A DNA stretch of 64,000 nucleotides from Kiritimatiellia bacterium. GTDB lineage: Bacteria; Verrucomicrobiota; Kiritimatiellia; RFP12; UBA1067. The stretch's first letter is position 1; the number at the start of each line of letters is the position of its first letter. Below the pieces are notes generated by a model, which saw nothing but the letters and a program-made list of their open reading frames with translations, was not told where the DNA came from and did no database searches. A program made the translations under genes and the position numbers. Positions 54,499 through 64,000 of the stretch are shown piece by piece. The stretch is taken from the NCBI GenBank assembly GCA_017525225.1, contig JAFXTB010000155.1, forward strand, positions 1 to 64,000. The letters are read 5' to 3'.

Positions 54499-56682
54499 TC
54501 AGGCGGCGAAGCCGATGGCACGGCTCTTGTCGCCATCCTTCTTCACAGCGCACTCCTCCTTGAGCGCCGCGATGCGCTCGGCGTTCGTGGCGTCCTCGCC
54601 GAGATAGAACATCTCCTGGCGGACGGTGCGGAAGTCGCCCGGAGCGACGTTCCGGAGCAGGCGCAGCTCGGCGCACTCCTCGTCCGAGAGCTTCGTCTTG
54701 AACATGCGCTCGAAGAAGGCCTTCTTCCCGGCATCGTCGAGGTAGCCGAACTCCAGCTTGAACGTGAACCGGCGCATCGTCGCGGGGTCGAGGTTCTTGG
54801 AGAAGTTCGTGGCGGCGACCATGATGCCGTCGAAGTTCTCCATCTGCTGGAGGAGCTCGTTCACCTGGGTGATCTCCCAGCTACGAGCAGCATGAGTGCG
54901 GTCCTGCAGGAGGCCGTCCACCTCGTCGAAGAAGAGGATGGCGTGCTCGGCCTCCGCCTGACGGAACGCACGGACGATGTTCTGCTCGCTCTCACCCACC
55001 CATTTCGAGAGGATGTCGCTGCCCCTCATCACCACGACCTTGCGGTCGAGCTCCTTGCCGAGATACTTCACGAACTCTGTCTTGCCCGTGCCGGGAGGCC
55101 CGTAGAGGAGGATGTTCATCCTGGGCTTGTCCTCGGAGGCGGCGCTGAAGCCGGCGTCGAGGTAGTTGCGCGCAGCCTTCACCAGGCGCTCCAGGGAGAC
55201 CTTGCCCCTGATGTTGAGCCCGTCGAGCGAGTAGTCCTTCGCGGGGAGGAAGGTGTTGGCGTCCTTGACGCCCATGAGCTTGCAGTGGGGCTTCATGAGC
55301 GTGGCGACCAGCTCGTCCACCTTGTCGGGCGCGGGAGCCATCCGCTTCACGTTCGCGAGCACGGTGGAAATGCCGCCCGCGCTCGTCTCGTACCTGGCGG
55401 CGTACTCCTCCATCTTCGACTCGGGGACGAGCGCCTCGAGGCCATGCTTCGCCACCTGGTTGCGCCAGATGGAGACACGCTGGGCGCCCGTGAGCCTCTC
55501 GAAGCAGATGGAGTAGTCGAAGCGGCGGCGCACGGACTCGTCCATCGCCCCGGCCGGGGCGTTGGAGATCCACACGGCGGGAATCTTCATCTCGTCGAGA
55601 ATCGAGTTCATCACGCCCTTCTCGGTGGACTTGCCGCCGGTGTCGAACCCGAAGAGTCCGAAGAGGCTGAACCCGCCCGAGCTGCCGCGCAGGAGCTCGT
55701 CCGCCTCGTCCACGATCATCAGACTCGTGGCGGGGTCCCCCTGGCCGTTGCACACCTGGATGCCCATCATGCGGGCCTCGGACTTCATGTTCCGTCCGTC
55801 CTCGTCGCCCTGGCGGATCTCCCAGGCCGTGCGCCCGAGCTCCTTCGCGAGGGAGCGGGCGAAGGAGGTCTTGCCCGTCCCCGGAGCGCCATAGAGGAGG
55901 ATGTTGCACTTGCCGCCGCTCGCGGTGACCATGCGCTTGAGAACCTCGCCATCCTTGGTCGAGAGGTCGCCGAAGAACTCCCAGGGGAGAATATCCTTCC
56001 CCTCGCTCTTCGAGTAGAAGCGGCGCTCGATGGTCTCATCGGACGTGCCGTCCATGAACCCGCCGAGCGTGCGGCGGCTGAAGTCGTAGTCGCTATCGAG
56101 GAGACCAAGCTTCAGCAGCTTGCCCTGAGGAGACATCGCCTTCACCACCTCGTCGTAGGAACGGTCGAGCGCCATCGCGTAGTAGAGCGGCTTCTCGCGG
56201 TCCTCCACGCGAACCGGCCAGCTGAAGCACGTCTGGTCGCGAACGTAGGCGAAGACGAGCAGCTCCGCCTCGAGCTCGTTCAGCTTGAGGACGCGCACGA
56301 GCTCGTCGAAGCGGCGTGCGACGATGTCCTCGGTCCCCGGGCCGCATTCCGCCTCCATGTACTCGCGTACCGTATCGAGGACGACACGGCACTTGTCCCG
56401 CGCGCCCTCATTGTTCCAGAGCGCGCAGAAGATGTCGTCCAGCGGGTCGCTGAGGTCCAGCCGGCAGTTGCGAGCACGGACCTTGGCCATCTCCGCGAGT
56501 TCCGCCGGCGAGTACGCCGCCTCGATGAGCTCAACCCCCTTGTCGTGGTCGAAACAGTTCCGGACTACATCGAAGAAGTCGTCGTCGCGACAGTCGTTCT
56601 TGTAGTTCTTAACCACGTTTCCCCAGTGCGTCAGGAGTTTCTTGTAGAGGTAGTCCTGAGGGATCTGCTTGAATCTTGCCAT
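54499..56682 (-). CDS. Double AAA+ ATPase
   Basis: A 727-residue protein with two AAA modules. The first has LLYGAPGTGKTSFARSLAKE and SLMIVDEADELL (about residues 270-340), the second LLYGPPGTGKTEFVKYLGKE and ILFFDEVDGLL (about 540-605), with NAPAGAMDESVRRRFD and ATNFSKNLDPATMRRF as sensor regions. The N-terminal 230 residues are helical and unrecognised. The fold resembles Cdc48/spastin-type unfoldases; a substrate or protease partner is not evident. Start at 56682 after GAGGAGTAAAAAAAAC. Confidence 0.85.
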   Translation of the reverse strand: MARFKQIPQDYLYKKLLTHWGNVVKNYKNDCRDDDFFDVVRNCFDHDKGVELIEAAYSPAELAEMAKVRARNCRLDLSDPLDDIFCALWNNEGARDKCRVVLDTVREYMEAECGPGTEDIVARRFDELVRVLKLNELEAELLVFAYVRDQTCFSWPVRVEDREKPLYYAMALDRSYDEVVKAMSPQGKLLKLGLLDSDYDFSRRTLGGFMDGTSDETIERRFYSKSEGKDILPWEFFGDLSTKDGEVLKRMVTASGGKCNILLYGAPGTGKTSFARSLAKELGRTAWEIRQGDEDGRNMKSEARMMGIQVCNGQGDPATSLMIVDEADELLRGSSGGFSLFGLFGFDTGGKSTEKGVMNSILDEMKIPAVWISNAPAGAMDESVRRRFDYSICFERLTGAQRVSIWRNQVAKHGLEALVPESKMEEYAARYETSAGGISTVLANVKRMAPAPDKVDELVATLMKPHCKLMGVKDANTFLPAKDYSLDGLNIRGKVSLERLVKAARNYLDAGFSAASEDKPRMNILLYGPPGTGKTEFVKYLGKELDRKVVVMRGSDILSKWVGESEQNIVRAFRQAEAEHAILFFDEVDGLLQDRTHAARSWEITQVNELLQQMENFDGIMVAATNFSKNLDPATMRRFTFKLEFGYLDDAGKKAFFERMFKTKLSDEECAELRLLRNVAPGDFRTVRQEMFYLGEDATNAERIAALKEECAVKKDGDKSRAIGFAA

Positions 56683-56717
56683 GTTTTTTTTACTCCTCGT
56701 TGTTTGTTGTTTGAAAT

Positions 56718-57011
56718 TCAACCGTGCAGGCCGAAGAAGTCCTCGGCGGACATGACTCCGCCGTCGTCTTTCCGTGTCGGCTCGTTTCCGCGCTCGAGCT
56801 GCATCTTCTCGCCGGTACGGCCGGCGATGATTGCCAGCGCACGTTTCCTGGATACGCCATAGATGCGCATGACCATCTTGACCTTCAGTTCGGCAAAGAG
56901 GTCCTTCGCAGAGGACTTCTTGCCGCGCGACCGTCCCTTGCGGACGGGTGTTTCGGGTTTCTCTACATCGCCGAAGAACTCGGCGGCGCTCATCATCGTG
57001 CTGTCTTTCAT
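56718..57011 (-). CDS. Small protein with KVKMVMRIY module and terminal FFG repeats
   Basis: A 97-residue protein. Residues about 42-70 (FAELKVKMVMRIYGVSRKRA, LAIIAGR) match the small protein at 33923. In addition the motif MSAAEFFGD near the N-terminus recurs as MSAEDFFG at the C-terminus, an unusual symmetric pair that may bind the same partner twice. It directly precedes the AAA gene on the transcript (35 bases). Start at 57011 with AAGGAACTAACACG upstream. Confidence 0.7.
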   Translation of the reverse strand: MKDSTMMSAAEFFGDVEKPETPVRKGRSRGKKSSAKDLFAELKVKMVMRIYGVSRKRALAIIAGRTGEKMQLERGNEPTRKDDGGVMSAEDFFGLHG

Positions 57012-57139
57012 CGTGTTAGTTCCTTGCATGTACTGTTTTCACCGACATTTATCATCTGCCGACAAAGTATTTAACAATGCCGCAGATGTTTCATTACGTG
57101 AAAAATGGTTTTTTCTTCTGAACTGGGGATTTCTCCGTG

Positions 57140-57164
57140 CCGTTCACGCCGCAGGCGTGAACGG
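57140..57164 (-). repeat. Palindrome at the end of sigma-like protein B
   Basis: CCGTTCACGCC-GCA-GGCGTGAACGG, a perfect 11-bp stem spanning the stop codon of the gene ending at 57144. No T-run follows, so it is a REP-like or mRNA-stabilising hairpin rather than a classic terminator. Confidence 0.6.
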
Positions 57165-57761
57165 ATCCTCGCTGTCAAGCGCGCGATCGAAATATCCGGG
57201 GCCATATTTCCGGAGCAGGTGGCCGACGCGGCATTTTCTCACAAAGACGTTGTTGGGCGTGAGGTGATAACGTGCCGCAAGTTCCTTCCCGGTCGCCATG
57301 CCCGTCGTGATGCCAGTGTAGATGGCAAGGTCCCGACGGGAGATGTCATGATTCCTGCGGAACATTTCGAGTGCACGCGCAAGCGCCCGGCTACGGATGT
57401 CGGCATCGATATACTGGCCACGGTGGCCGCTCGTGAGGATATCGGCTAGCATCTTCGATGTCTCTTCGACGTATTTGGCATGGCGCTCGCCGTGTTCCCT
57501 CAGATGGGAAAGATACGAACGCGCCTGCCAATACAGCGCCTTGACCCAACCCGCTTCCGTCCGTGGCAGCTTGTCGCCGTAGGCCATACGGTCTTTGACG
57601 AACATGAGCTTGTAGTAGGCGAACTCTACCGCGTCCTCGCGATCGGCATGGCTGTAGCGGTGGCTGAGCATCTGCACGATCGACTTACGGGTCTTTGCGT
57701 AGAGCACACCCCAGACGGTGAGGGTTGGATAAGGCATTTCTGTTTCGTTGTCGAATACCAT
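57144..57761 (-). CDS. Small sigma-like protein B
   Basis: A 205-residue paralogue of the protein at 42416-43030. The C-terminal part reads RRNHDISRRDLAIYTGITTG, then GKELAARYHLTPNNVFVRKC, a region-4-like helix-turn-helix; the N-terminal part has SHRYSHADREDAVEFAYYKL and WYWQARSYLSHL-type region-2 helices (WQARSYLSHL). The start at 57761 follows AAGGAAAACCAC. It diverges from the RtcR-like gene with 243 bases between them. Confidence 0.6.
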   Translation of the reverse strand: MVFDNETEMPYPTLTVWGVLYAKTRKSIVQMLSHRYSHADREDAVEFAYYKLMFVKDRMAYGDKLPRTEAGWVKALYWQARSYLSHLREHGERHAKYVEETSKMLADILTSGHRGQYIDADIRSRALARALEMFRRNHDISRRDLAIYTGITTGMATGKELAARYHLTPNNVFVRKCRVGHLLRKYGPGYFDRALDSEDPFTPAA

Positions 57762-58004
57762 GTGGTTTTCCTTGTTTGGACGGCGTGCCGTTGAAGCAAA
57801 CGCCACCCGGGTCTGCCTCAAATCCTGGCCCATCCAGAATCCAGGATTCACCTCTTATATACAGACGCAAAATCCAGTATTCGCTTATGCCTACCAGCGG
57901 GATTCCCATCAACTTCCGCTGTTTTTTAAACAACCTGTGAATTTTTCTTCCCCCCTCGTTAATTTTTTCAACACATCAGCGACATTATATGGTATACTAT
58001 CGGC
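57762..58004. promoter_or_regulatory. Divergent region between sigma-like B and the RtcR-like gene
   Basis: No gene. It contains GAATCC-A-GGATTC (57837-57849), the island motif GATTTTGCGTCTG on minus (57874-57862), GTTAATTTTTTCAACA on plus (57958-57973, a partial leader box) and the plus extended -10 TATGGTATACT (57993-57998). The last lies six bases before the RtcR-like ATG, so that mRNA is probably leaderless. Confidence 0.55.
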
Positions 58005-59957
58005 ATGCCAAAAGAAAAATCAACAAAGTCGCAGGATGTACAGCCAAAGCGCAAAGTCCTGATTTCCTTCATCAGCTATGATCAGGATGATTTCGAGGTC
58101 AAGAAAACCGATGAATCATTCATGAAATCTTATCTGCTTCCTGATGATCGTGTTCCGCAGAGCCGTCATGAGATCTGGCGGCCGTCCGTCGCACTTGCTC
58201 AACTACAGGGATTAGAGGAACATTACGACGACCTGGTTTTCGACGACTACTATCTCCTCACGGACAACCGTGACAAACACAAGAAAGTCAAGGAAGAAGT
58301 CATAGAGGACATCCGCCACGTAGCGCCGACGCTCAATCTAGTAGTCGACGATCCAAGAATCAAGAATCCTTTCGACACCTACGAAGTCTACCAGCGGTTC
58401 GTCGAGTACTTTTCCGACGAAAAATTTCACAGGGCGAATACCGAATACTACGTCAACTGCACCAGCGGAACCTCGCAGATACGCAACTGTCTCTTCCTAC
58501 TCACACAGATGGGCCAGATCGATGCACGCCGCATAGATCCCACACCATGGAGGAACCACAAACAACGGGGCAAGAAAAAAGACAACCAGTACAAAGAAGA
58601 CGGTCGGCGCTGGGTCAAGGGTTCGTATAAGATTGATGACCCCCGTGAGTTTACCGAGGCCTGCCGTAAAACGACTGAGTCAACGGACAAGGGGACGCTC
58701 GGTTTTCTGAAGTACGGTGTAACCACAAAGGACTACAGCAAGCTCGAGAAGATCGCACACATCATTGACAAGATCAAAGAAATCAAGAACCCAAAGTTAA
58801 GGGCGCAGCAGTCGATCCTGCTGACGGGGGAAACGGGCGTTGGGAAAACGCAAATGGCGCGAAACATTGCCGATGCATTTATGGGCAGGCGTGACAAGAA
58901 GAATTTCATCTCCCTAAATTGCGCGATGATTCGCGGGTCTGACGCGAACATCCAGCGAATGGAACTTTTTGGAAACAAGAAGGGCTTTCCCAACGCGAAT
59001 GACCAGGAAAAACCCGGTGTGTTTAGCACGGCCAACGGCAAAATCCTGTTTCTTGACGAAATCGGAGAACTCCATCCGACAATACAGGCCATGCTTCTTG
59101 CGGTGCTCGATGTGGACGACGACGGAAATTTCAATTTCGTCCCTCTCGGTGGCGACCCGTCCAAACCAGAGAAAAGCTCCTTTATGCTGATCTGCGGAAC
59201 AAACCGCCCGTTGGAACAGCAGTTGGAGGAGAACGCTTCCTCAGAAATCCATTTTCGAAGTGATTTGTTCAATAGAATCAACGCCTGGCATTTTGAACTG
59301 GCTCCGCTCCGAGAACGCCGGGAGGACATTCCCGAGAATGTCGATTCAATCTTGAACGAGTTCTATGCCGATACAAATGGGAAGCGTCCCCTGTTCAAAC
59401 CAACAGCGCTCAAAAAATTTCTCGACTTTGCCAAAGAAGAAAAGTGCACCACTTGGGACGGGAATTTCCGCGAACTAAACGCAATAGTGAGGCGCATGGC
59501 GATCCTCGCAGTCAACAACACCATTACGGATGAGATCGTGGAAGAGGAAATTAAAGCAGCTCAAAAACAGTACGAAGCCAAACGGCAACGCAGTGCTTCC
59601 GCAGTTGAAGAAACGGCGCGTCAAGCAACAATGGAAGCACCTCGCCAGGAGGAGAAGGAGGAACCCCATCAAGAACGGGACCACCACTCCATTATTGGCG
59701 ATGACACCTACAAATCCTTAAGTCTCCTTGACCAGGCAGAGTTCGATATCCTCGCGAAGACTGTCATGGAGGACCGTGTGACCGACCGGCAAGAGCTGAT
59801 CGAAAAAGTGTACGGCATACGGACTTCGGGCAAAGGGGCGGGCAAATTGAAACTGTCTTCGGGAGGTCTGACGCATCGCCTCTCCAATAAATTCAATCTG
59901 CGTCTCGTCAAAGGGAAACTGGTGAGAATCGAAAATCCCCAGCCCCCTGCAACCTAA
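58005..59957 (+). CDS. RtcR-like CARF/AAA+ transcription regulator
   Basis: A 650-residue regulator. Residues about 15-190 resemble the RtcR N-terminal CARF-type sensor (KVLISFISYDQDDF, VNCTSGTSQIRNCLFL). Residues about 270-520 are a sigma-54-activator-type AAA domain: GETGVGKTQMARNIADAF (Walker A), ILFLDEIGELHPTIQAML (Walker B), FRSDLFNRIN (arginine finger) and WDGNFRELNAIVRRMAI. The loop that should read GAFTGA is FGNKKGFPNANDQ instead. The last 120 residues, beyond the usual RtcR end, form an acidic linker and a basic tail ending in a possible winged helix (KLSSGGLTHRLSNKFNLRL). In known RtcR proteins damaged-tRNA ends activate the sensor. Confidence 0.85.
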   Translation: MPKEKSTKSQDVQPKRKVLISFISYDQDDFEVKKTDESFMKSYLLPDDRVPQSRHEIWRPSVALAQLQGLEEHYDDLVFDDYYLLTDNRDKHKKVKEEVIEDIRHVAPTLNLVVDDPRIKNPFDTYEVYQRFVEYFSDEKFHRANTEYYVNCTSGTSQIRNCLFLLTQMGQIDARRIDPTPWRNHKQRGKKKDNQYKEDGRRWVKGSYKIDDPREFTEACRKTTESTDKGTLGFLKYGVTTKDYSKLEKIAHIIDKIKEIKNPKLRAQQSILLTGETGVGKTQMARNIADAFMGRRDKKNFISLNCAMIRGSDANIQRMELFGNKKGFPNANDQEKPGVFSTANGKILFLDEIGELHPTIQAMLLAVLDVDDDGNFNFVPLGGDPSKPEKSSFMLICGTNRPLEQQLEENASSEIHFRSDLFNRINAWHFELAPLRERREDIPENVDSILNEFYADTNGKRPLFKPTALKKFLDFAKEEKCTTWDGNFRELNAIVRRMAILAVNNTITDEIVEEEIKAAQKQYEAKRQRSASAVEETARQATMEAPRQEEKEEPHQERDHHSIIGDDTYKSLSLLDQAEFDILAKTVMEDRVTDRQELIEKVYGIRTSGKGAGKLKLSSGGLTHRLSNKFNLRLVKGKLVRIENPQPPAT

Positions 59958-59969
59958 TCTCCTTTAAGT

Positions 59970-61301
59970 TTAAGCACATTTCACCTGATCTCGCAGGTAG
60001 CGCAATCGTCTGGGATGGCGTAGCATACGCAACGCCTTCGCCTCGATCTGGCGTACGCGTTCGCGCGTGACGTTGAACATCTGGCCGATTTCCTCCAGCG
60101 TACGGGAATTGCCGTCTGTCAAGCCATACCGGTAGTCGATTACCTCGCGCTCGCGAGGCCCCAGCGTTTGCAGGACATCCATCAACTGCTCGTGCAGGAG
60201 ATTCCGATCCGTCGCCACGGACGGTTCAACACTCGTGGGATCCGCCACGAAATCGCCAAAAGAGGCGTCCTCCTCGTCTCCCACCTTCATCTGAAGCGAG
60301 ATGGGACGCTGCGCCATGTTCAGAAGCTGACGCACTCTTTTCGGGGTAACGCCTAGCTCCTGCGCGAGTTCGGCCGCGGTTGGATCGCGGCCCAAGCTTT
60401 GTATCAGCTGCTTCTGGACTCGACGGAGTACCTGAAGCCGCTCGATGAGATGGACGGGCAGGCGGATCGTACGTGCCTGGTCGGCCAGCGCACGTGTCAC
60501 AGACTGGCGGATCCACCATGTCGCGTATGTCGAGAACCGATACCCCCTGCGGTAGTCAAAGCGCTCCACGGCCCGCACCAGACCGGCGTTCCCCTCCTGG
60601 ATCAAGTCCAGGAACTCCAGCCCGGAGTGCATGAACCGCTTGGCGATGGACACGACCAGGCGGAGGTTGGCCTCCACCACGCGAGACCGCGCCGCCTGGA
60701 CAGTCGACAACGCCCGACGCAGCTCGCCGAACTTTTTCGCGAATCGAACCTTTTTCCCGAACTCTGCATCTGCATCCGTGCAGAGCGCCTCAAAACACTT
60801 CTGGCTTATGCACATCTCAGCCGCGCACCGCGAAACGGCCAAGGCGCTGCGGGCTCGTTTAAGTTTCTGGCGGAAAGCGGGGATCCGCGCCACAAATGCG
60901 GCACGGTCTCCTGCAAACTCGTCGGAGACAATGTTGTCGAACCGTTCCTCCTGCCCTTCAATGCGGTCGAGAAGGCGCGCATACGACGTCGGGGCAAAGG
61001 GGAAGCTGTTGAAAATCTTCTGGCACGTCACCGTGGCCGCGGCGATCGCCTTGAACAACCTCGTCTCCTCCGCCATGTTCAACATCGGTATCTGCGCCAT
61101 CTGATAGAGGTAACTCTGTACGGACGAATCCGACATCATGTACTCCTCCCGAGCCTTCTTCGCCTCCTTCTCCGTCATGTCAGGATCTGAAGGCGGTGCG
61201 GTCTCGTCGGACACATCTGTGTCCGTCTCGGGCGTGTCCGTCTCGGGTGTGTCCGTGTCGGGTGTGTCACCCATTTCATCAATCTCGTAGTCTTCTTCCA
61301 T
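59970..61301 (-). CDS. RpoD-family sigma-70 factor
   Basis: A 443-residue sigma factor with regions 1.2 ([16 protein letters not shown]), 2 ([53 protein letters not shown]), 3 and 4 ([20 protein letters not shown]). Region 1.1 is replaced by an acidic Asp/Thr/Glu repeat ([12 protein letters not shown]) encoded by a short tandem DNA repeat at 61200-61270. It could be the primary factor or an RpoD paralogue. It converges on the RtcR-like gene with 12 bases between the stops. Confidence 0.9.
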
Positions 61302-61348: not shown

Positions 61349-62995
61349 TTACTTGGTACGTAGATAATACCGTGCATCCCCCTTCGATGTTACGCTATAA
61401 GGGTTCATGAGCGCGAGGCGGAGACGCGGTAGCATGTCCGGCAGCAACTTGTCAGCCGCTTGCAGTACCTCCACGAAAGGTGTCCCGCGCCGGTACGTAT
61501 TCACAGACTCGTTGTAGCCGAAATCCTCCATCATCATGGTGATTTCGTTCGCGCTTGGCTCGTGGCCATCCGCCAAGAGCTTGAGCCGTATCATCCCCTT
61601 CAGGAGATCGACTGCGAACCGCCGGTGCGACAGCGCGCGCCGCCAGATCTGGCCGACGCACGCGCGCAGGTTGACCGCCAGGGCCGGAACCACCCGATCG
61701 CCGTCGCGCAGGAAGTTGGGAATCGCCGTCACCCGTTCCAAACCCGTGCCGAGACCTTTGTTGAGATGGATTGCGCACGGGCCCGGCGCATCATTCCAGC
61801 ATGCCGCATACGCCAACTCGCGGAAGCGCACGAGCGCGTCGTAGATGCCGCCGAACGCCGAGTAATACGACTTTTCCGCCTTCTCGGCGCGTTCAAGGCG
61901 TTGGATCTTGCGCGTGAATTTCTGCGGTACGACCTGTGCCGCGTGCCGGAACTCGCTTTTCCGCGCCGCGCGGTCCGCCTTCTCTCGCGCGGTCATCCGG
62001 CGAAGGGTCTCCTTCAGTGTCTGCTCGATCGCCTCCGTGCCGTCCGTCAGCGCAAGCCACTGATCCTGCTGCCACCTGAAGGCGTTGCGTGGGGACGCCA
62101 CACGCTCGAAGAGGTAGTTCGAGTTCGCGCTCTGCACGATGTTGCAGGCAACCTTGCCAGGAGCGCGGCGGAGGCCGCGTCCGCACATCTGGATCGTCGG
62201 CAGACGCGAGGCATCGCGCGCGAAGATGCTCATCACATCGGGCTGGTCGAAACCCTCCGTGAGCATCGCCACGTTCGCCACCACCTGCACGCGGCCGTTT
62301 GCAAACGCCTCGATCTGACTCTCCTTGTCGCTCTCGCCCGTTACCACCTCGCACGCCACACCGCCTGCGGCGAGGCGCTCGCGGAACGCCACGCATTCGG
62401 CGATCGTGGAGAAGAATACGAGGCTCTTCCCCCAGCGGGCGGGTTCAGCCAGGTAGAAATCCGCCGCCGTGTCCACACTGTAGTTCGGAATGACATACGT
62501 GTTGAACGGACTGAGATACCCTTCCCGAACGAGGCGGCCGATCGAACACGTACGCACCGTCTCCTGGAAGGAGAGCTTCATGCGGTCCGTCCGCATCGGT
62601 GTTGCCGACAGGCCGATCGTCCACTTGGCGTGCATCCGCTCGTATAGGAGCACGCAGCTCTGCGTCGCCTCGTGGTGGGCCTCGTCAAGAACGACTAGCT
62701 CCACCTCTGGCGGTACCTTCTCGAAGAGCGAAACGGGGCGGATGTTGTCACCGTGAAGGTCGCGGTTGGCTTCCATCATCTGACGCAGCAGGTGGTGGCG
62801 TGGCGCCACCCAGCCGATCTTGAGTGGACGTCCCAGATGTTCCTGGAGACGGTGGATCACCTCCAGGGCCATGTACGTCTTGCCCGAACCGACAGGCGAT
62901 TCGAGCAGGACGGACGTGCGTCCCCGTTCGGTGAACGCAGCGAGAGCCGCCTTGATAGCCTCCTGCTGGTAGGGCCTCTGCTCGTACTGCATCAT
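61349..62995 (-). CDS. SF2 DEAD/DEAH-type helicase
   Basis: A 548-residue helicase. [20 protein letters not shown] (Q-motif-like) is followed by [17 protein letters not shown] (I), [15 protein letters not shown] (II), [15 protein letters not shown] (III), [17 protein letters not shown] (V) and [14 protein letters not shown] (VI). It resembles the short type III restriction/SSL2-like helicases. The C-terminal 170 residues are unrecognised. Start at 62995 or the next ATG at 62992; GGGAGG lies upstream. The upstream gene stops two bases before, so they are cotranscribed. Confidence 0.88.
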
Positions 62996-62996
62996 C

Positions 62997-64000
62997 CTAT
63001 GCGGCCTCCCTTGAGAAGTTGATGCCGCCAAGGTAGAATCTGCTGGTCCTGCCTGCGTTCGGATAGAGGTCTTCCAGGTCGAAATCCTTGGAAAGGAGCG
63101 TCCCCGCGAAGGAATGGAGCGTGGAGTCGGGCTTGAGCAGGTCCGCATGGTGCGTGGTGAGCTCAGAAGCGAAGTTGAGGAGGTCGGCCACGCTGCATCC
63201 CACGGGCAGGAGCGGACGCTTCTTCTGGCCAATGTTCGTGAGGTCAGTCACGCCGTAGCGTACGCACGGGTTCGCGGCGATTTCGTTCAGACGCTCGCGA
63301 AGGAGCATTTGGTTGCGCGTATTCGCCACAGAGCGGCGGATCAGCCCCTCCAGCAGCACAACCTCGCCCACCGATGCCTTCGTGCCGGCCGCGGTGCACA
63401 TGCGCTCCTGCAGCATCTCGATGCCGGACGGATTGCTGAAGGAAACCAGCAGCCGACGGAAATGCTCGCCGCTGTTGTCCTTGATCTCCATCTTCGTGCG
63501 GAAGATTGGTGCCTCCGCCACCGCGCCGTTGGAACACACCTGGCGCCAGGTCGCGAGGCTCATGTCGGGCATGCCAACGCCGTCCACGGGCACACGGCAG
63601 CGAACGCGCACATGGTAGGCGCTGTCGTTCGGCACACTCCACGGATCGTCAAGGTCCAGCATGGCACTCAGCATGCCGTCGCCGTATTCAACTTCCTGCA
63701 GGCGGCGGTCATCGTGCAGTACCCTTTCAATGAACTTCACGGGCATGGGAAGTCCCTTGTCCTGCGTGAGGCCGAGGGCCTGGTTCTGCTCCGTGTCGAC
63801 CGTAACGCGAAGCGGCAGGTCCGGTTCCTTCTCAGCGGCGCGGGTCATCACCTCCAGTGGTGAGAAGAACCCGAATACCCCGAAGGGAATGCCCAGTTCA
63901 CCGGCGAGGGTTTTGTAGAACCGGTCGCTCAACTTGTAGGTCGTCTGACCGAGGACGAGTCCCTTGATCTTCTCGTCGTCACTGTCCAGGACCTCGACCA
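62997..64000 (-). CDS. Partial gene, DUF932-reminiscent protein
   Basis: The gene runs off the right edge of the window; at least 334 residues are visible. The sequence upstream of a TTG at 63932 stays open and protein-like (GLVLGQTTYKLSDRF), so the true start is beyond 64000. The part seen has no obvious motif; LPMPVKFIERVLHDDRRLQE and LLRERLNEIAANPCVRYGVT are typical of its helical character. Cotranscribed with the SF2 helicase. The DUF932 resemblance is weak. Confidence 0.5.
   Translation of the reverse strand, partial: VEVLDSDDEKIKGLVLGQTTYKLSDRFYKTLAGELGIPFGVFGFFSPLEVMTRAAEKEPDLPLRVTVDTEQNQALGLTQDKGLPMPVKFIERVLHDDRRLQEVEYGDGMLSAMLDLDDPWSVPNDSAYHVRVRCRVPVDGVGMPDMSLATWRQVCSNGAVAEAPIFRTKMEIKDNSGEHFRRLLVSFSNPSGIEMLQERMCTAAGTKASVGEVVLLEGLIRRSVANTRNQMLLRERLNEIAANPCVRYGVTDLTNIGQKKRPLLPVGCSVADLLNFASELTTHHADLLKPDSTLHSFAGTLLSKDFDLEDLYPNAGRTSRFYLGGINFSREAA

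Follow-up and report, generated by a model that had tools for sequence, protein, structure and literature searches.

The 64,000-nucleotide window analyzed here, a stretch of DNA from a Kiritimatiellia bacterium, encodes a regulator of the RtcR family, RtcR3, which on sequence grounds is a member of a paralogous clade with an eroded sigma-54 contact loop and an intact ATPase motor, located within an island that carries a compact one-chain RNA polymerase. This polymerase is undescribed. The reading that we favor, with a probability of roughly 0.4, is that RtcR3 is an RtcR paralogue specialized for the island and acts most probably on the island's own machinery.

Domain architecture of RtcR3 and its contact loop

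The gene and the segments of its product are located in the window as follows.

58005..59957, forward strand: RtcR3 open reading frame, 650 amino acids, organized as CARF/RtcR sensor, AAA+ domain, linker and C-terminal HTH-like domain, with no GAFTGA
58149..58568, forward strand: RtcR/CARF-type sensor domain, residues 49-188 (PF06956, 73.4 bits, cut-off 23.1)
58827..58847, forward strand: Walker A motif GETGVGK, residues 275-281, intact
58983..59000, forward strand: L1 loop, residues 327-332, reading GFPNAN where GAFTGA is expected (gap-free alignment)
59046..59063, forward strand: Walker B motif LFLDEI, residues 348-353, intact
59253..59282, forward strand: arginine-finger region FRSDLFNRIN, residues 417-426, intact
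59460..59477, forward strand: sensor II motif GNFREL, residues 486-491, intact
59583..59756, forward strand: variable linker, residues 527-584, 28% identity among the RtcR3 clade
59757..59930, forward strand: C-terminal domain, residues 585-642, aligned with RtcR2 and with the canonical RtcR of the same genome

Pfam assigns residues 251-429 to the sigma-54 activator domain (Sigma54_activat, PF00158, E=3e-31) and residues 436-526 to the AAA lid, and the PADLOC RtcR CARF_AAA_HTH model matches the protein with E=2e-93. The score against the NCBIfam RtcR equivalog NF038308 is 311.9 bits, below the cut-off of 650. These domains and the intact motifs bear out the RtcR-like sensor, Walker A and B motifs, arginine finger and NFREL motif described in the first-pass annotation. 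Its reading of KGFPNAN in place of GAFTGA is equally sound, since the segment LFG-NKKGFPNAN aligns without gaps with LFG-HEKGAFTGA of solved relatives and three orthologues agree. The realignment that it proposed found no GAFTGA equivalent elsewhere in RtcR3, and the gap-free alignments exclude misalignment. Sequencing error is likewise excluded by the three independent orthologues, which are about 50% identical and also lack the motif.

RtcR homologues were searched for in 162 genomes of the same order. The three close orthologues of RtcR3 (G033 contig 39, G061 and G030; about 50% identity) form with the window protein one clade of the maximum-likelihood tree (support 100/100), and the canonical RtcRs group separately from it (96/93); the branches are long and the deeper joins are to be read with caution. 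An intermediate group, RtcR2, comprises proteins of about 600-650 amino acids (about 540 in canonical RtcRs), and two further RtcR-like proteins adjoining the polymerase, in G086 and G123, were designated RtcR4. GAFTGA is missing from all four RtcR3 members, whose loops all differ (GFPNAN, a GTVGNA stretch, a KVANV stretch and GAASGI), and two of the orthologues carry a 2-residue deletion in the loop. Identity inside the clade is 17% in the loop versus 57% in the AAA domain, and Walker A, Walker B, the arginine finger and sensor II are nearly invariant in the four proteins. Elsewhere in the family the loop reads GSFSGA, GAFSGA or GSYSGA (canonical RtcR), GDFTGA, GDFTDA, GDYTGA or SAFTGA (RtcR2), and GAYTGA or GAFTDA (RtcR4). 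Judged from this pattern of conservation, the motor of RtcR3 looks to be under selection and the sigma-54 handle does not.

The C-terminal 120 residues had been annotated as an extension that might provide a different DNA-binding or output module. They resolve instead into the variable linker and a diverged version of the normal RtcR C-terminal domain: residues 585-642 can be aligned to the DNA-binding C-terminus of ordinary RtcR with the intermediate RtcR2 as a bridge, which makes a new module unnecessary and rules it out. A single-sequence structure model of the domain reached a pLDDT of 52, too low for use. At the other end of the gene a TATACT box precedes the start codon by about 6-8 bp (window 57990-58005), so near that the RtcR3 message may be leaderless.

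The island, its RNA polymerase and the mini-sigma

RtcR3 is surrounded by the following genes, the last two of which lie past the end of the window on the same contig (C53).

53785..54372, reverse strand: ClpP-like protease gene (named by eye from sequence), conserved beside the tandem AAA gene
54499..56721, reverse strand: tandem AAA+ ATPase, whose homologue on contig C155 is divergent to canonical RtcR
56718..57029, reverse strand: small conserved protein with SAEDFFG motifs, first gene of the tandem-AAA operon by locus comparison
57144..57851, reverse strand: 235-residue, all-helical, possibly ECF-sigma-like protein, divergent from RtcR3, in a slot conserved beside RtcR
59970..61301, reverse strand: sigma-70 family factor (PF04539/04542/04545), convergent with RtcR3
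61349..63232, reverse strand: island-conserved superfamily-2 helicase (ResIII) whose actual start is probably close to 63001
62997..64000, running to 64091 beyond the window, reverse strand: conserved 364-residue protein, no Pfam match
64253-64984 (L069:6254-6985), reverse strand: mini-sigma, 243 amino acids
64987-69915 (L069:6988-11916), reverse strand: fused beta-beta' RNA polymerase, 1642 amino acids, 1 kb past the window end

Locus comparison shows a single conserved island made up of the ClpP-like gene, the tandem AAA+ ATPase, the small SAEDFFG protein, the ECF-like protein, the RtcR-like regulator, in some loci the sigma-70 gene, the helicase, the 364-residue protein, the mini-sigma and the fused polymerase. 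The 235-residue neighbor, ECF-like by eye, has no Pfam match, sigma factors are among its top Foldseek matches with none significant, and its single-sequence model (pLDDT 62) is too low for use. The small protein has SAEDFFG/SAAEFFG repeated at both ends and is possibly a substrate tag or adaptor.

The fused polymerase contains Rpb2 domains 6 and 7 and Rpb1 domains 2 and 5 (also 1 in some) within a single open reading frame. The core motifs of both catalytic subunits are present, including the catalytic DFDGD and the Rpb2_6 basic motif, and ADFDGD, GDKLMGRHGNKG, NRQPSLH and AAQSIGERGTQLSM are intact. Its sequence matches in the PDB are ordinary bacterial beta and beta' subunits. Normal rpoB and rpoC are also present in the genome (contig 180; 1312 + 1451 amino acids versus 1642 for the fused protein). 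The fused polymerase occurs in 14 of the 162 genomes of the order, and we found no account in the open-access literature of a compact cellular polymerase accompanied by partners of this kind. A provirus origin was considered and rejected, there being no close relative in phage records or IMG/VR (best identity about 38%). A diverged fused polymerase of 2013 amino acids, with the DFDGD site seemingly changed to LDYDGD, is encoded in G288 (L142:7915-13956) within an apparent mobile element, its neighbors being a PolA-like polymerase, a primase-like gene and an integrase of the tyrosine-recombinase type (names given by eye); the gene content of this locus suggests a mobile origin for the wider fused-polymerase class.

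The mini-sigma (about 220-270 amino acids) is encoded immediately downstream of the fused polymerase. Of 346 genomes searched across the class, 14 have it, and these are the very genomes that encode the polymerase. Of 13 members only one matches PF04552 (sigma-54 DNA-binding domain) at all, and its E of 0.0016 falls short of the cut-off. Against a profile of 29 RpoN sequences the mini-sigma profile scores 28-29 over 108 columns with an HH-suite probability of only 6-7%; the corresponding scores are 14.8 +/- 2.8 for column-shuffled RpoN (1/200 as high) and 15.2 +/- 2.5 for the shuffled query (0/200), a z of about 5 for hhalign relative to the shuffles. The two proteins keep the same register across the tail of the core-binding domain and the HTH, right up to the final residues. 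Unlike RpoN, the mini-sigma is of half length and lacks the RpoN box in the alignment, ending before its position; a region I similarity spotted by eye was undetectable on testing. A PDB search with the mini-sigma gave no sigma-54 match. The profile comparison makes sigma-54 kinship suggestive, and the name is provisional.

An RtcR-like gene adjoins the polymerase/mini-sigma pair or lies within about 5 kb of it in 11 of 11 genomes with long enough contigs (G000, G030, G033, G057, G061, G063, G066, G069, G086, G109 and G123), the polymerases of which are down to only 43% identical. It directly follows the mini-sigma in convergent orientation in G030, G061, G086, G109 and G123. RtcR2 is encoded with no polymerase detected in G060 and G050, and the RtcR3 gene of G033 is on a 17-kb contig lacking the polymerase. 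The slot by this type of polymerase is also filled by RtcR-like proteins whose loops are good (GDFTGA, GAYTGA, GAFTDA), so loop loss is no requirement of the partnership.

A canonical RtcR, whose loop reads GSFSGA, is also encoded in the genome (contig C155), and rpoN, which the first-pass annotation had advised looking for, is present on contig C40. Besides RtcR3 there are 8 activator-domain matches, 5 of them non-RtcR proteins with GAFTGA or a one-letter variant. The rtcA-rtcB operon (rtcA recognized by eye) is on contig C85, hence not adjacent to RtcR3 on C53, and is preceded by the -24/-12 site TGGCATGGTTTGTGCT. With canonical RtcR, rpoN and rtcA-rtcB all located elsewhere in the genome, RtcR3 is unneeded for the rtcAB role and is an extra paralogue. 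Its slot is that of RtcR2 in the nearest syntenic relatives, and its low third-position GC (0.60; 0.64-0.91 in the neighbors) is consistent with replacement by transfer.

Promoters and possible modes of action

The first-pass annotation had proposed a sigma-54-independent switch or a rewired regulator. Loss of the contact motif with the ATPase kept makes rewiring likely, and the compact polymerase 5 kb downstream changes what rewired might mean. Sigma-54 independence has fared worse: textbook -24/-12 sites stand before the adjacent operon at two of the three orthologous RtcR3 loci (L048:8684 TGGCATGGGTTTTGCT and L050:9891 TGGCACGCTAAATGCT), and RtcR-likes with good loops sit in the same slot; it is unproven, and with such sites near the module in relatives it is not claimable for the whole clade. 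Sites scoring 10-11/12 lie 5' of the small-ORF/tandem-AAA operon at L048, L050 and most of the RtcR2 loci read, and also 5' of the tandem AAA gene next to canonical RtcR; upstream of this operon in the window there is no -24/-12 site of at least 9/12. Among inverted repeats searched for as possible binding sites, L048 and L050 each yielded candidates, and the window had no shared site. At L047:8691-8706 a -24/-12 site (TGGCACAGAATATGCT) stands about 50 bp before a tandem AAA gene that is transcribed away from canonical RtcR, which suggests an RtcR target besides rtcAB.

RtcR3 might still activate sigma-54 despite its unusual loop, possibly by way of loop 2, with the -24/-12 promoter in front of the small-ORF/tandem-AAA operon as its target. 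The sites at L048 and L050 are correctly spaced from the start codon, the regulator next to them is RtcR3, no canonical RtcR was listed for those genomes, and the same operon has -24/-12 sites beside canonical RtcR and RtcR2. What makes this rather unlikely is that both the F and the T of GAFTGA are gone and two members have the 2-residue deletion, whereas several activators are reported to need every one of the six residues of the motif (PMC7057263), and that the window operon has no comparable site. By analogy, RtcR3 could instead regulate the ordinary sigma-70 promoters used by the host polymerase, as has been described for GAFTGA-less family members: NtrC of Rhodobacter capsulatus, NtrC of Caulobacter and a Vibrio regulator (PMC10274813). 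Sigma-70-like extended -10 elements, recognized by eye upstream of the polymerase gene in several genomes, would fit, as would the sigma-70 and ECF-like genes flanking RtcR3. Yet some of the sigma-70-type members work without ATP hydrolysis (PMC10274813) and RtcR3 retains every ATPase motif, and what is conserved is its linkage with the compact polymerase, not with any particular sigma-70 promoter; we regard this alternative as improbable too, to a similar degree. That the gene is a decaying duplicate, its loop lost first and the rest to follow, would agree with the long branch of the window copy (1.15), its low third-position GC and the loss of the nearby -24/-12 site, but four genomes retain the open reading frame, the catalytic motifs and about 50% full-length identity, and we judge decay very unlikely.

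If RtcR3 is specialized for the island, as we prefer, its CARF domain would, going by the family, sense an RNA-damage or nucleotide signal and gate the intact AAA+ ATPase ring. The ring would no longer engage host sigma-54 canonically, because the contact loop is apparently no longer under selection. We infer that it most probably targets the island's compact polymerase, its small sigma-54-like partner or both, at promoters recognized by the C-terminal domain of RtcR3.

Relation to known systems and significance

RtcR3 shares with RtcR of the E. coli type, the CARF-AAA+-HTH activator of rtcBA, its domain order, PF06956 sensor, ATPase motifs and the position of the C-terminal domain; it differs in the missing GAFTGA-type loop, the NF038308 score below cut-off, the location away from rtcAB and the compact-polymerase island. 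With the GAFTGA-less activators named above it has in common an NtrC-class AAA+ domain that has lost the sigma-54 loop. Unlike them, it has a CARF sensor in place of a receiver and other genomic partners, and the window loop has been altered by substitutions, not by one large deletion.

Helicobacter has a fused rpoBC gene. Fused beta-beta' RNA polymerases have also been described in crAss-like phages (PMC7481178). The island polymerase resembles both in joining the two catalytic subunits in one chain, and differs in its size (about 1640 amino acids), its clearly bacterial sequence, its place on a bacterial chromosome alongside normal rpoB and rpoC, and its dedicated small partner and RtcR-type AAA+ gene. 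Since only two genes are involved (about 1640 + 240 amino acids), the polymerase and mini-sigma are directly testable in vitro.

AAA+ activators that keep the motor and have lost the sigma-54 handle raise the question of what else such rings remodel. The single-chain polymerase with its small partner would, if active, be an additional cellular-type transcription system outside phages, and the RtcR3 island may give its bacterial host a second transcription machine. It is a tentative further step, and one that we think doubtful, to see here a complete machine made up of a single-chain polymerase, its own reduced sigma-54-type specificity factor and a CARF-gated AAA+ ring that would switch it on after RNA damage or phage attack; if that were true, transcription could go on while the host polymerase is disabled.
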